DNA from: an uncultured Parvularculaceae bacterium
Lineage (GTDB): Bacteria; Pseudomonadota; Alphaproteobacteria; Caulobacterales; Parvularculaceae
Assembly (NCBI GenBank): GCA_947259375.1
Contig: CAMYLZ010000017.1
Coordinates: 1 to 64,000, forward strand
Reading direction: 5' to 3'
DNA length: 64,000 nucleotides
Shown here: in pieces, positions 12,204 to 38,405 of the stretch
How the letters are laid out: each line of letters starts with the position of its first letter
How positions within the stretch are numbered: position 1 is the stretch's first letter
Notes under the pieces: generated by a model
What the model was told of the DNA's origin: nothing
The model's database searches: none
Seen by the model: only the letters and a program-made list of their open reading frames with translations
Program-made: the position numbers and the translations under genes

Positions 12204-12290
12204 AGAAATATCCCCGCAGGCCGGAGCCTGCGGGGCGATTTGGTGCAGTCTACGCTACTTGTTAACGGCTAGCCTGCGATTTCTGAACAT
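12204..12290 (-). ncRNA. Candidate tracrRNA for the neighbouring Cas9
   Basis: Minus strand. A 28-nt antirepeat (12288-12261) pairs with the 5' 26 nt of the 36-nt repeat at 15753-15788: the shared blocks TTCAGAAATCG and CTAGCCG are exact complements, with one mismatch and one wobble between them. A short linker (12260-12241) follows, then a perfect 10-bp hairpin CCCCGCAGGC/GCCTGCGGGG with a four-base loop and TATTT. TTGACT at 12322-12317 would serve as -35 for transcription starting near 12290; a -10 is not obvious. Antirepeat, linker and terminal hairpin match type II tracrRNA layout. The RNA is inferred, not demonstrated. Confidence 0.6.
12212..12235. terminator. Perfect GC hairpin between lysR and cas9
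   Basis: CCCCGCAGGC and GCCTGCGGGG, four-base loop CGGA on plus, flanked by AAAT/ATTT. It can end the minus-strand RNA described as tracrRNA and may also stop lysR transcription on plus, though T tracts are short both ways. Confidence 0.55.
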
Positions 12291-12318
12291 TTACAGATTG
12301 CGGCTTTTCACTTATCAG
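12290..12318 (+). promoter_or_regulatory. Candidate cas9 promoter
   Basis: TTTACA (12290-12295), 17-nt spacer, TATCAG (12313-12318), giving a start about 30 nt before the cas9 ATG. It overlaps the 5' end and -35 region of the opposing tracrRNA candidate, so the two transcripts would compete. Confidence 0.35.
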
Positions 12319-12354: not shown

Positions 12355-15300
12355 ATGCGTCAAAACAAAGCTGAAAAGCGGCCTTACCGCATCGGCATCG
12401 AGTTGGGCCCGAGCTATTTGGGCTGGTGCGTAATTGACCTTGACGACGCCGGCAATCCTACCGGCATTCGCGATATGGGCGTGCGCATATTTGCGGAGGG
12501 CCGCGATCCAAAATCCGGCGCATCTCTTGCTGTCGAACGGCGTTTGGCGCGTTCAGCGCGGCGGCGGCGCGACCGTTTCGTCGGTCGGCGAAAAGCGTTG
12601 ATGAAAGCGCTCGTTAAATTCGACCTGATGCCCGCAGATGCTACCGACAGGAACGCGCTCGAAACGCTCGATCCTTTTGCATTGCGCGCCGCAGCGCTTG
12701 ATGACGCCATTCCGCTTTACCACCTCGGCAGGGCCTTGTTTCACCTCAATCAGCGCCGCGGTTTCAAATCAAACCGCAAGGCGGATCGCGGCAATGACGA
12801 GGAAAAAGGAAAGATTGCGACCGGCATCGCGCGCCTTGCCAAGGCGATGCGCGATAGCGGTGCGCGCACATTTGGCGAGTTTCTCCATCGCCGCCGCCGA
12901 GGCGCCGACGACCCGCGGCGCACGCCGCCGGTCCGCGCACGCCTGCACGCCGCGCCGGATAGCAACGGATACGAATTTTATCCTGACCGCGCCATGCTGG
13001 AGCAGGAATTTGACGCCATCTGGACCGCGCAGACCAGGCATCACCCCAAGGTCTTGACGCCTGAAATGCGCAGCCGCCTGGCGTCGATCATGTTTCATCA
13101 ACGTCCGCTCAAGCGCAGACCCGTCGGCCGATGCATGTTCTTTGACGACGAACGCCTGCCAAAGGCGCATCCGCTGCTCCAGGACCGCCGGGTTTATGAA
13201 GAGGTCAATGCGCTGGAGATCGAAATACCCGGCGAGGCGTCGCGAAAATTGACCCTCGATGAGCGCGACAAGGTTGTTGCAAAACTGCAAAATGCGAAAT
13301 CCGCGTCCTTTTCGGCCTTGCGGACCTTATTGAAATTGCCGGACGCCGCCCGCTTCAATCGCGAGTCCGAGCGTTTGCCGAAACTGACCGGCAATGAGGT
13401 GCGCGCGGCATTGTCGCGCAAGGACAGGTTCGGTCCGAAATGGGCCATCCTCGATCTCGAGACTCAGACGGAAGTGATCAAGCGGCTCCGCGAAGAAGAC
13501 GAGGAAGGCCGCTTAACCGACTGGCTCGAACAGCTATTCGGCATCGAAACCGGTCGCGCAAGAAGGATCGCCAGCGTCGCCCTGCCTGAAGGCTATGGCA
13601 GGCTCGGCGAAAAGGCGACGCGCTTGCTGCTCGACATGTTGCAAGCCGAGGTCATCACCCGCGATGAAGCGCTTGCGCGCTGCGCCGTCGCCTATCCCGA
13701 AATGACGGACCAGACGGCGCCGCATGGCGATGGCGCCATGGCGCACCTGCCTTATTACGCAAAGGTGCTGGAACGCCATGTCGTTCCGGGCACGTACAAT
13801 CCGGATGAAGAGGACGATGCCGTTCGCTATGGCCGCATCGCCAACCCGACCTTTCACATCGGCCTGAACCAGTTGCGGCGGGTCATGAACGACATTATCC
13901 GCATCCACGGCCGCCCCGTTCAAATCACCGCGGAACTGGCGCGCGACCTCAAGCTCAGCGACGAACAAAAAAGGCGCGCAAATGCGCTTGGCCGAAAAAA
14001 CGCCCAGGCGTCGGAACGGCGTTCGGCGCAACTGCGCGAACTCAAGCAGCGCGACACCGGGGCCAACCGGTTATTGCTGAAACTCTGGGAGGAATTGAAC
14101 CCGGATGACCCATCTGACCGGCTTTGTGTTTATTCCGGCGAGGCGATTACGCCCGACATGCTGTTCAACGGGACCGTCGAACTCAATTACATCTTGCCGC
14201 GCTCGCGCACGCTTGATGAAACCGACGCCAACAGAACACTCTGCCTGACAGCGTTTAATCGGCAAAAACGGGGCAAATCGCCTTACGAAGCCTTTGGCCC
14301 GGACAAGGATCGCTGGGCCGGCGTCATTTCCCGCGCCGCGCGCCTGCCAAGGAACAAGCGATGGCGATTTCAGCCCAACGCGATGGAGCGTTTTGAAAGC
14401 GAAAAGCGCAGTTTCGTCGACAGGCAATTGATCGACGGACACTATCTCTCGCGGCTTGCCCGGCGATATCTCGAAACGGTCTGCCCTGGCGATCAGGCGG
14501 CGCGCGCTGGCGTATTCGTCATTCCGGGGCGCATGACCGAAATGCTGCGCCGCAAGTGGGGCCTCAACCCGCTGCTGCCCGATCACAACCTGCCTGTCGG
14601 CGCCGGCCGCAAAAAAGATCGCCTTGATCACCGCCACCACGCGATTGACGCTTCCGTCATCGGCGTTACCGATCGGGCGTTGCTGACCCGCATCGCCGCC
14701 GAAACCGCGCTCGCCGAAGACGAGGCCCGGCTCGATCACGACCTTGGCGACATTGATCCGCCCTGGACGACTTTTCGGGCGGATCTCGGCGCGGCGCTCG
14801 AACGCGTCGTTGTCAGCCACCGGCCGGACCAGGGCTGCATTTCCATGGCCGCGCGCCGCGCCACCGGCCGTGACCGGACGGCGGGGCGCCTGCATAACGA
14901 CACCGCCTACGGCCTTACCGGCAAGACCGATGACAATGGCAATGAAATTGTCGTGGTTCGAAAGCCGATAGAAAGCCTCACCCGACCCGCCGATATCGAG
15001 CGCATTCGCGATCCCGAATTACGCGCGGCGTTGCGGGAAAAAACGCAAGGGCTTTCAGGCGGCAAGTTTGGAAAAGCACTGCGCGCCTTTGCAACGGACA
15101 ATGAAAGATGGCCTGGTCTGCGCCGTGTGCGGATTATCGAATCGATAAAAACGGTAAAAGTCCGCGACCGCACCGGCGCCGCCTATAAAGGGTACAAAGG
15201 TGATTCCAACTATCGTTACGATGTGTGGGAATTACCTGATGGAAAATGGGTTTGCGACGTGGTGACGATGTTTGACGCACATCAGCGGCAAACGGAATCA

Positions 15301-15603
15301 CCGGTCAAACGCGAATACCCCACCGCCAGGAAAATCATGCGCCTACACCAGAACGACATGCTCGCGATTGAGCATGAAGATGGCGAAATCATTGTCAGGG
15401 TGGTCAAATTCAGCATTTCCGGAAATCTGACAATGGCCGGCCATCTCGAAGGCGGCGCCCTGAAGGCCCGCGATGCGCAAAACAGCGACGCCGACCCGTT
15501 CAAATATATCTATGCGTCGGCAAACGCCCTGAAAAAACGAAAAGCGCGAAAAATCCGTATCGATGCGCTCGGCCGCGTGCATGATCCCGGCCCGCGCGCC
15601 TGA
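12355..15603 (+). CDS. cas9: Type II-C Cas9 with altered RuvC-I and HNH active sites
   Basis: A 1082-residue Cas9, normal length for type II-C. In order: RuvC-I YRIGIELGPSYLGW (residues 11-24), arginine-rich bridge helix RRLARSARRRRDRFVGRRKA, REC lobe with YHLGRALFHLNQRRGFKSNR, RuvC-II QITAELARDLKLS (E527), HNH around VELNYILPRSRTLDET, RuvC-III LDHRHHAIDASV (H762, D765), and C-terminal wedge/PAM-interacting region with YKGDSNYRYDVWEL. Canonical Cas9 has Asp in GLDIG and Asp-His in the HNH motif; here they are E16 (GAG at 12400) and N611-Y612 (AAT TAC at 14185-14190). HNH cleavage should be lost and RuvC impaired or lost, while RNA and DNA binding regions look whole. ATG at 12355 lacks a clear Shine-Dalgarno; the frame is open to 12163 but that part is non-conserved. 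No cas1, cas2 or cas4 nearby. Confidence 0.95.
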   Translation: MRQNKAEKRPYRIGIELGPSYLGWCVIDLDDAGNPTGIRDMGVRIFAEGRDPKSGASLAVERRLARSARRRRDRFVGRRKALMKALVKFDLMPADATDRNALETLDPFALRAAALDDAIPLYHLGRALFHLNQRRGFKSNRKADRGNDEEKGKIATGIARLAKAMRDSGARTFGEFLHRRRRGADDPRRTPPVRARLHAAPDSNGYEFYPDRAMLEQEFDAIWTAQTRHHPKVLTPEMRSRLASIMFHQRPLKRRPVGRCMFFDDERLPKAHPLLQDRRVYEEVNALEIEIPGEASRKLTLDERDKVVAKLQNAKSASFSALRTLLKLPDAARFNRESERLPKLTGNEVRAALSRKDRFGPKWAILDLETQTEVIKRLREEDEEGRLTDWLEQLFGIETGRARRIASVALPEGYGRLGEKATRLLLDMLQAEVITRDEALARCAVAYPEMTDQTAPHGDGAMAHLPYYAKVLERHVVPGTYNPDEEDDAVRYGRIANPTFHIGLNQLRRVMNDIIRIHGRPVQITAELARDLKLSDEQKRRANALGRKNAQASERRSAQLRELKQRDTGANRLLLKLWEELNPDDPSDRLCVYSGEAITPDMLFNGTVELNYILPRSRTLDETDANRTLCLTAFNRQKRGKSPYEAFGPDKDRWAGVISRAARLPRNKRWRFQPNAMERFESEKRSFVDRQLIDGHYLSRLARRYLETVCPGDQAARAGVFVIPGRMTEMLRRKWGLNPLLPDHNLPVGAGRKKDRLDHRHHAIDASVIGVTDRALLTRIAAETALAEDEARLDHDLGDIDPPWTTFRADLGAALERVVVSHRPDQGCISMAARRATGRDRTAGRLHNDTAYGLTGKTDDNGNEIVVVRKPIESLTRPADIERIRDPELRAALREKTQGLSGGKFGKALRAFATDNERWPGLRRVRIIESIKTVKVRDRTGAAYKGYKGDSNYRYDVWELPDGKWVCDVVTMFDAHQRQTESPVKREYPTARKIMRLHQNDMLAIEHEDGEIIVRVVKFSISGNLTMAGHLEGGALKARDAQNSDADPFKYIYASANALKKRKARKIRIDALGRVHDPGPRA

Positions 15604-15670: not shown

Positions 15671-15725
15671 GCGGTTGCGTTGGGAAAAAGAAAAGGTTCA
15701 GAAATCTCAGGCCAAACGCAACCGC
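15671..15725. repeat. Inverted repeat downstream of cas9
   Basis: GCGGTTGCGTTGG (15671-15683) and its complement (15712-15725, one bulged A) enclose a purine-rich loop. It may terminate cas9 on plus (followed by CTTTAATATATT) or the minus-strand array transcript; it also includes the first bases of the degenerate second repeat. Confidence 0.6.
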
Positions 15726-15788
15726 CTTTAATATATTCTGACTTCGCTGCTCAGTATAGCAATTCAGAAATCGAAGACTAGCCGAAAC
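15687..15788 (-). CRISPR. Minimal one-spacer type II-C-like array
   Basis: Minus strand: a 36-nt repeat at 15788-15753, beginning GTTTCGGCTAG and ending GAATTGCTATACT, then exactly 30 nt (15752-15723), then a second 36-nt unit at 15722-15687. The second unit matches 19 of the first 26 bases, including the ten-base core GATTTCTGAA, and decays at its 3' end as terminal repeats do. 36-nt repeats with 30-nt spacers are the type II-C norm. TGCTATACT at the repeat end is an extended -10 box, like the repeat-borne promoters known in Neisseria arrays. With only two units this could be a decayed array or a fixed guide locus. Confidence 0.6.
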
Positions 15789-15835
15789 TGTTATTTTGGT
15801 ACTTTTTCTTCTGTCGCCGGTGTAACAGTTTCGGC
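15781..15835. repeat. 13-bp perfect inverted repeat at the array leader side
   Basis: GCCGAAACTGTTA (15781-15793) and TAACAGTTTCGGC (15823-15835) with a 29-nt loop. Eight bases of the inner arm are the 5' end of the first repeat, so a transcript entering the array could fold this repeat against its leader. Confidence 0.7.
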
Positions 15836-15945
15836 GCAGCGCGCCAACCGCGCGCCCTCAAAAACCCGCATGCCGCAGGCCGGACGGAACTTGTCGCCCC
15901 GCCACTAGCTCGCGCGCTTATTGCCCGATTGGTCCGGAAAAATCA

Positions 15946-37901: not shown

Positions 37902-38116
37902 GCGCGCAAATCTTAAAACGAGGGTTCGGACAAGCTTTCTCGCGGATGCGTCCGTTCTTGTCCTTGAAAGAAGTTCTGGCGGAGAGAGAGGGATTCGAAC
38001 CCCCGCGCGCCTCTGGCGCGCAAATCTAAAAACGAGGGTTCGGACAAGCTTTCTCGCGGATGCGTCCGTTCTTGTCCTTGAAAGAAGTTCTGGCGGAGAG
38101 AGAGGGATTCGAACCC
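37902..38116. repeat. Tandem duplication of the tRNA-Ser 3' half and its downstream flank
   Basis: Two near-identical copies of about 101 bp, 37902-38002 and 38016-38116, with a period of 114. The right copy contains the T arm and acceptor of the intact tRNA-Ser; the left copy repeats these (from TGGCGGAGAGAGAGGGATTC at 37977) without the rest. Either a site-specific integration footprint or unequal recombination. Confidence 0.9.
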
Positions 38117-38180
38117 TCGGTACCCGTAAAGGCACAACGGTTTTCGAGACCGCCCCGTTCGACCACTCCGGCACCTCTCC
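38091..38180 (-). tRNA. tRNA-Ser(CGA)
   Basis: Minus-strand class II tRNA of 90 nt including encoded CCA. Acceptor GGAGAGG, anticodon loop CTCGAAA gives CGA, long variable arm, T arm GAGGG-TTCGAAT-CCCTC. It sits between two partial duplications of its own halves. Confidence 0.95.
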
Positions 38181-38405
38181 GCGGGGAAAGCGGTGTCTAG
38201 CGCTTAGAATCCGCGCTGGCAACATTGTTGTGGTGAAAAGGAGTGGTCGAACAATCTGAAATTAGCCGGCTTTGCCGGCGGGCGACCACTCCGGCGCCTC
38301 TCCGCGGGGAAAGCGGCAGCTAGCGCTTAGAATCCGCGCTGGCAACATTGTTGTGGTGAAAAGGAGTGGTCGAACAATCTGAAATTAGCCGGCTTTGCCG
38401 GCGGG
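38160..38405. repeat. Tandem duplication of the tRNA-Ser 5' half and its upstream flank
   Basis: Units 38160-38282 and 38283-38405 (period 123) differ at only a few positions. The first contains the 5' end of intact tRNA-Ser, the second an isolated 5' fragment at about 38284-38303. Each unit ends in GCCGGCTTTGCCGGC, a small hairpin. Confidence 0.9.

Follow-up and report, generated by a model that had tools for sequence, protein, structure and literature searches.

A type II-C Cas9 with altered RuvC-I and HNH residues beside a tracrRNA gene and a remnant repeat array in an uncultured Parvularculaceae bacterium

Organization of the locus

The window analysed here is a stretch of 64,000 nt, positions 1–64,000 of contig CAMYLZ010000017.1 (assembly GCA_947259375.1), from an uncultured Parvularculaceae bacterium. 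It contains a cas9 gene of a type II-C CRISPR (clustered regularly interspaced short palindromic repeats) system, whose deduced product is altered at the RuvC-I and HNH catalytic sites, a predicted gene for the trans-activating CRISPR RNA (tracrRNA) and a remnant repeat array, these predicted parts being all within 3.7 kb (Table 1). The compact Cas9, the antisense array downstream of it and the divergent tracrRNA gene match the type II-C layout and, judged from its sequence, the locus is a stripped-down type II-C system that comprises Cas9, the tracrRNA and a very short array. A Pfam search of the genome, which is 99.1 % complete, gave no match to Cas1 or Cas2 (PF01867 and PF09827), and models built from relatives found neither of them in the window. 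With such models, both Cas1 and Cas2 were found in nine out of 11 named relative loci (L011 to L021) and neither in L015 or L017, the latter being a locus that ends soon after cas9.

Table 1. Coordinates of the cas9 locus features in the window
Feature	Coordinates	Strand	Evidence
Predicted tracrRNA, ends approximate	12205–12297	-	Weight matrix, relatives, folds, repeat duplex
Terminator-like hairpin of tracrRNA with a perfect 10-bp stem; T tail weak	12212–12235	-	Hairpin search, fold
Anti-repeat of tracrRNA	12262–12297	-	Scan with the repeats of relatives; weight-matrix rank 3 of 127,930, score 11.2
cas9, type II-C, 1,082 aa, altered RuvC-I and HNH sites	12355–15603	+	Frame, Pfam, PADLOC, relatives
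Codon 16, GAG (Glu), position of the RuvC-I catalytic Asp	12400–12402	+	Alignments with 9ar4 and relatives
Codons 611–612, AAT TAC (Asn-Tyr), position of the HNH Asp/Glu-His	14185–14190	+	Alignments with 9ar4 and relatives
Hairpin, arms 15671–15681 and 15715–15725, overlaps R2	15671–15725		Hairpin searches
CRISPR repeat R2, cas9-proximal, 3′ end diverged	15687–15722	-	Matrix rank 2, score 14.7; 25-bp duplex with tracrRNA
Spacer S1, 30 nt	15723–15752	-	Between R2 and R1 in the 66-bp register
CRISPR repeat R1, best preserved	15753–15788	-	Matrix rank 1, score 35.5; 29-bp duplex with tracrRNA
Spacer S0, 30 nt	15789–15818	-	Between R1 and R0
CRISPR repeat R0, degenerate, least certain	15819–15854	-	Matrix rank 4, 66-bp register

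The cas9 gene and its altered catalytic residues

Translation of the cas9 frame revealed zero stops and zero frameshifts. PADLOC assigned the product to Cas9 (4.4e-70), and its Pfam matches to RuvC_III and HNH_4 exceeded the cut-off, with the domains in the order of Cas9. The solved structures scoring best against it were Cas9s, the top one being PDB 9ar4, titled ThermoCas9. A model generated by AlphaFold (11 rows) had a mean predicted local distance difference test score of 73.6 and a predicted template modelling (TM) score of 0.49, too weak for active-site geometry, and its top Foldseek matches were ThermoCas9 and Nme1Cas9, with low TM scores of 0.30–0.33 for the first ten. In cas9, the GC content at third codon positions is 0.689, and in two genes of its neighbourhood it is 0.704 and 0.707.

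Relatives of this protein were gathered from 62 genomes of the family, 11 loci in GTDB contigs, and 398, 385, and 398 genomes of the order, class and phylum, respectively. These sets overlap and include the bacterium's own genome; those of the order, class and phylum were sampled from larger groups, which may contain closer kin beyond the genomes sampled. The final alignment contained 60 relatives, 59 of them distinct (L013 and L030 represent one protein), and the main relative alignments left out L008, L009 and L010, which are second pieces of other matches. Identity among the gathered relatives reached a maximum of 52 % (L025 and L055); these two, as well as L011 and L020, are alphaproteobacterial type II-C Cas9s with the same fold and domain order as the window Cas9. 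Additionally, 57 plasmid records contained a Cas9 match, all below 60 % identity and reaching up to 50 %, whereas phage records gave one distant match (27.6 % identity) and a search of viral contigs with peptide patterns found no Cas9 relative.

A preliminary description of the window, made from the sequence alone, had claimed an intact 3.2-kb type II-C Cas9 frame with the RuvC-I motif GIELG (E16) and the HNH motif VELNYILPRS (N611-Y612), retaining E527 in RuvC-II and H762 and D765 in RuvC-III. Coordinates, strand and open frame were all verified, and both motifs are present as described; in the alignment to the 9ar4 Cas9, E16 corresponds to the RuvC-I Asp and N611-Y612 to the HNH Asp-His. The three residues claimed as retained were also seen in the alignment, together with N635, and we identified a third altered place, absent from that description, near the RuvC-I site: a Tyr in the column of Ser21 (Y21). 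In the alignment with the 60 relatives, D16 occurs in 58/58 of those covering the position, as does S21, so that the latter column is invariant except for the window Cas9. Position 611 is D or E in 59/59 (32 E and 27 D) and H612 is likewise found in 59/59, while the retained N635, H762 and D765 each occur in 59/59 and E527 in 60/60. The covered alphaproteobacterial type II-C relatives, unlike the window Cas9, thus have canonical RuvC and HNH residues.

The HNH domain cleaves by means of an Asp/Glu that is a metal ligand and a His that acts as general base, and RNase H-like sites are usually crippled by a change from Asp to Glu. Since both HNH residues are lost in the window Cas9, cleavage by HNH would be lost and this domain is most likely dead, whereas its RuvC domain was probably crippled or inactivated by the substitution at position 16. 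The double nuclease loss advanced in the preliminary description therefore stands, by established Cas9 chemistry, for HNH, and is probable for RuvC.

The tracrRNA gene and the remnant array

The tracrRNA gene is divergent to cas9 and is read away from it. Its predicted anatomy is well preserved, keeping the conserved GTTAACAAG and CACCAAAT as well as a nexus stem (GUAG/CUGC) of four pairs, one of them G-U, in the fold of a shorter piece, although the longer single-sequence fold pairs this segment otherwise. A comparable scan of 36 relatives detected, upstream of cas9, an anti-repeat followed by CAAG in 19; the remaining 17, some of which are short or cut loci, had no such site by the scan rule. 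The examined alphaproteobacterial type II-C loci resemble the window in this divergent upstream tracrRNA (19/36) and in having 36-nt antisense repeats spaced 65–67 bp. Near the cas9 locus, the Rfam search returned only a tRNA above the gathering score.

The remnant array (15687–15854, minus strand) lies 83 bp downstream of cas9 and comprises three diverged repeats and two spacers; for comparison, 74 repeats were counted in the array of L011. The repeats were located with a weight matrix, derived solely from those of seven relatives and applied to both strands of the window (127,930 sites). Repeat R0 scored −1.5, a narrow margin over the next site (−2.3), and is thus supported mainly by its place, because R2, R1 and R0 are in a register of exactly 66 bp, compared to a period of 65–67 bp in the arrays of relatives. 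The predicted duplexes with the tracrRNA had energies of −38.1 kcal/mol for R1 (29 bp) and −34.5 kcal/mol for R2 (25 bp), with 0/2000 shuffles as good for either of them, and of −25.4 kcal/mol for R0, with 19/2000 shuffles as good. The end of R1, TGCTATACT, resembles by eye an extended −10, which is compatible with a promoter borne by the repeat. According to PMC4607530, type II-C systems have arrays that lie antisense and downstream of the cas genes, with promoters borne by the repeats and a proximal repeat that is degenerate. Hairpins also precede the first repeat in relatives, as judged by eye, and a 13-bp inverted repeat seen by eye, TAACAGTTTCGGC (15776–15838), joins the S0/R1 border to R0 and could give the transcribed array a second hairpin. 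An array with near-identical repeats was not found in the genome, where a pattern search gave one further weak site.

Search for guide targets

Using the S1 seed (16 nt, up to two mismatches), we found six sites in the genome besides S1 itself, versus two for the reversed control. The best one (L048, 1501–1516), in which 13 nt agree with the 3′ end of S1, sits between genes, in a gap of 105 bp that precedes a helicase-like gene, so named by eye; it matches 19/30 nt overall, and we do not claim it to be a target. The search with S0 (15 nt, up to two mismatches) gave two further sites in the genome versus one in the control; the better of them, with 14/15 nt at the start of a gene named by eye as decarboxylase-like, was also rejected, as it matches only 18/30 nt overall. 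In other genomes of the genus, S1 had four sites with three mismatches and the control had three. Exact 18-nt matches in viral contigs, one stretch for S1 and six for S0, extended to at most 22/30 nt, and a BLAST search of phages with the array retrieved seven records (E 4), all on a single AT-rich stretch of 25 nt. Inside the window, guide matches did not go beyond 9-nt seeds.

Conservation of the protein

In a comparison of 49 rows of over 1000 aa, leaving out L006 and L021, the window Cas9 departed from the consensus at 12/160 of the columns with at least 90 % conservation, the sixth highest value, versus 5/158 for the median row. Canonical relatives departing more were L037 (27/167), L018 and L036 (17/165 each), L012 (13/158) and L066 (13/161). 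The end branch of the window Cas9 in the tree, which left out six rows, was 0.71, versus a median of 0.49. By these alignments, conservation in the rest of the protein falls inside the span seen among canonical relatives, but on the high side of change.

Possible role of the altered Cas9

The leading reading, still unproven and to which we give a probability of around 0.5, is that the window Cas9 is a non-cutting RNA-guided DNA binder acting as a regulator or roadblock. According to this reading, cas1 and cas2 would have been lost whereas Cas9, the tracrRNA and the tiny fixed array were kept. As in other type II-C arrays, the 3′ end of R1 would carry a promoter from which S1 and R2 are transcribed along the minus strand, giving a guide of ca. 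24 nt, and Cas9 would be loaded with the resulting CRISPR RNA and the tracrRNA. The complex would then bind matching DNA, leaving the target strand uncut because of the loss of HNH, and cutting the opposite strand at best poorly because of the RuvC Asp to Glu change; since neither strand would be properly cut, it could work, guided by RNA, as a roadblock on or repressor of some sequence of the host or of a mobile element. From the conservation of the protein and the predicted RNA pairing we infer that RNA loading and DNA binding may persist, and we hypothesize that the window Cas9 regulates some sequence.

The retained use in DNA binding was already proposed in the preliminary description, and the intact frame, the conservation, the tracrRNA gene and the pairing repeats agree with it, but it has no support from orthologues. 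None of the 60 aligned relatives shares E16 or N611-Y612, every covered one being canonical; their divergence is too great for dN/dS, and conservation after inactivation is not demonstrable because no orthologue carries the same changes. That description had considered that canonical orthologues plus a decay pattern would speak against binding: the former exist, whereas decay was not seen in the gene. Several other results weigh against a DNA binder. The changes are enriched at catalytic positions only weakly (P 0.066), and the window Cas9 departs at 5/71 strictly invariant columns (D16E, S21Y, V500F, H612Y and T695G), the most among the 14 rows listed, with positions 21, 500 and 695 being non-catalytic. 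In an earlier set of 30 rows, which left out seven short or distant ones, it departed at 6/84 invariant columns, tied with the canonical L012. The array is worn, as R0 is degenerate and R2 lost its 3′ end, and the repeats of six relatives pair with their tracrRNA at −43 to −59 kcal/mol, that is, more strongly than R1 and R2. Finally, convincing targets were found neither for S1 and S0 in the genome or in viral contigs, nor for S1 in the genus.

The worn array, the canonical residues of all the covered relatives and the failure to find Cas1, Cas2 or a target for S1 or S0 would fit a relic, that is, a system that became useless or costly after the loss of cas1-cas2 and was recently inactivated by point changes, with too little time for stops to appear. 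We examined this by mutating the cas9 frame at random in rough neutral simulations of substitutions; indels would make survival rarer. The interval between the first and third hits among the seven catalytic codons spanned 442 mutations and 13 stops (medians); only 3/400 runs were stop-free in this interval, and at most 10 near-invariant columns were changed in 32/400 runs. Nevertheless, taking 611–612 as one place, altered in a single event, 250/2000 runs reached the second catalytic place stop-free. These results suggest that a long neutral decay is unlikely, whereas a short and recent one is possible. The preserved tracrRNA stem and repeat pairing are also at odds with decay, and we see a relic as a serious contender, although at less than even odds. 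A natural nickase, with the Glu at RuvC-I supporting weak nicking of the non-target strand, would be consistent with the conservative nature of the change and with the retained RuvC-II Glu and RuvC-III His and Asp, but it is unlikely given the usual effect of Asp to Glu on such sites, the invariance of Asp16 in the covered relatives and the additional alteration of S21 nearby. Lastly, the changes were seen in a single genome, as would fit catalytic codons that were wrongly sequenced or assembled, but this is very improbable with three catalytic codons plus Y21 changed, a frame open throughout and an assembly that is 99.11 % complete and 0.01 % contaminated, in 32 contigs.

Comparison with known systems

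A locus from a Rhodospirillales metagenome-assembled genome (L015, 7885–11246) resembles the window in its Cas9-only type II-C layout and its tracrRNA, with two repeats around one spacer that are predicted to pair with its own tracrRNA at −53.8 and −61.1 kcal/mol, but differs from it in its canonical nuclease residues. Neither Cas1 nor Cas2 was found in this 17-kb locus, to which the search was confined. L015 is in a different part of the Cas9 tree, which suggests that Cas9-only mini-arrays had more than one origin and can also accompany canonical nucleases; the layout of L015 possibly represents an intermediate stage. Engineered nuclease-dead Cas9 (dCas9) is a central tool, and a more specific version of the DNA-binder reading, which we advance only tentatively, is that the window codes for a natural dCas9: after a stage resembling L015, with Cas9 and a mini-array alone, evolution would have disarmed a chromosomal Cas9 at both nuclease sites but preserved it, together with its tracrRNA and one or two fixed guides, to serve as a DNA roadblock or as a transcription factor guided by RNA. 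In agreement with the preliminary description, which held that no natural Cas9 changed at both sites had been described, phrase searches of the open-access literature found no paper on a natural dCas9.

Campylobacter coli clade 3 is reported also to have cas9 and repeats without adjoining cas1 or cas2, although its Cas9 has canonical nuclease motifs, unlike that of the window (PMC4607530). Repression by Cas9 with the small CRISPR/Cas-associated RNA (scaRNA) or a long tracrRNA, as reported in PMC8730458, likewise involves a diverged repeat near cas9, a guide-like segment and pairing with the tracrRNA, and repression instead of cutting would be common to both; there, however, Cas9 is nuclease-active and repression results from short complementarity, while in the window the protein itself is altered. 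As reported in PMC13418256, the TldR repressors, nuclease-dead TnpB proteins, resemble the window Cas9 in having lost the nuclease motifs and kept the guide RNA. They belong to the TnpB family, many are associated with non-transposon genes and their targets were shown, whereas the window Cas9 is a singleton for which a target was not found in our searches. If binding and regulation were true, adaptive immunity would have been turned into fixed gene regulation through the loss of adaptation and cutting; a true natural dCas9 would be the Cas9 counterpart of TldR.

Genomic setting

The response regulator gene beyond the tRNA gene was matched in 26 of the 28 genomes of the genus, including that of this bacterium, and tRNA-Val was present in eight of 11 sister loci. 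None of these 11 loci contained cas9 within a flank of up to 1.5 kb, and in this lineage the cas9 locus seems to have been added next to the tRNA gene. Elsewhere in the window (37902–38405), there are two pairs of long tandem direct repeats, with spacings of 114 and 123 bp, that overlap a doubtful tRNA-Ser call (38091–38180).
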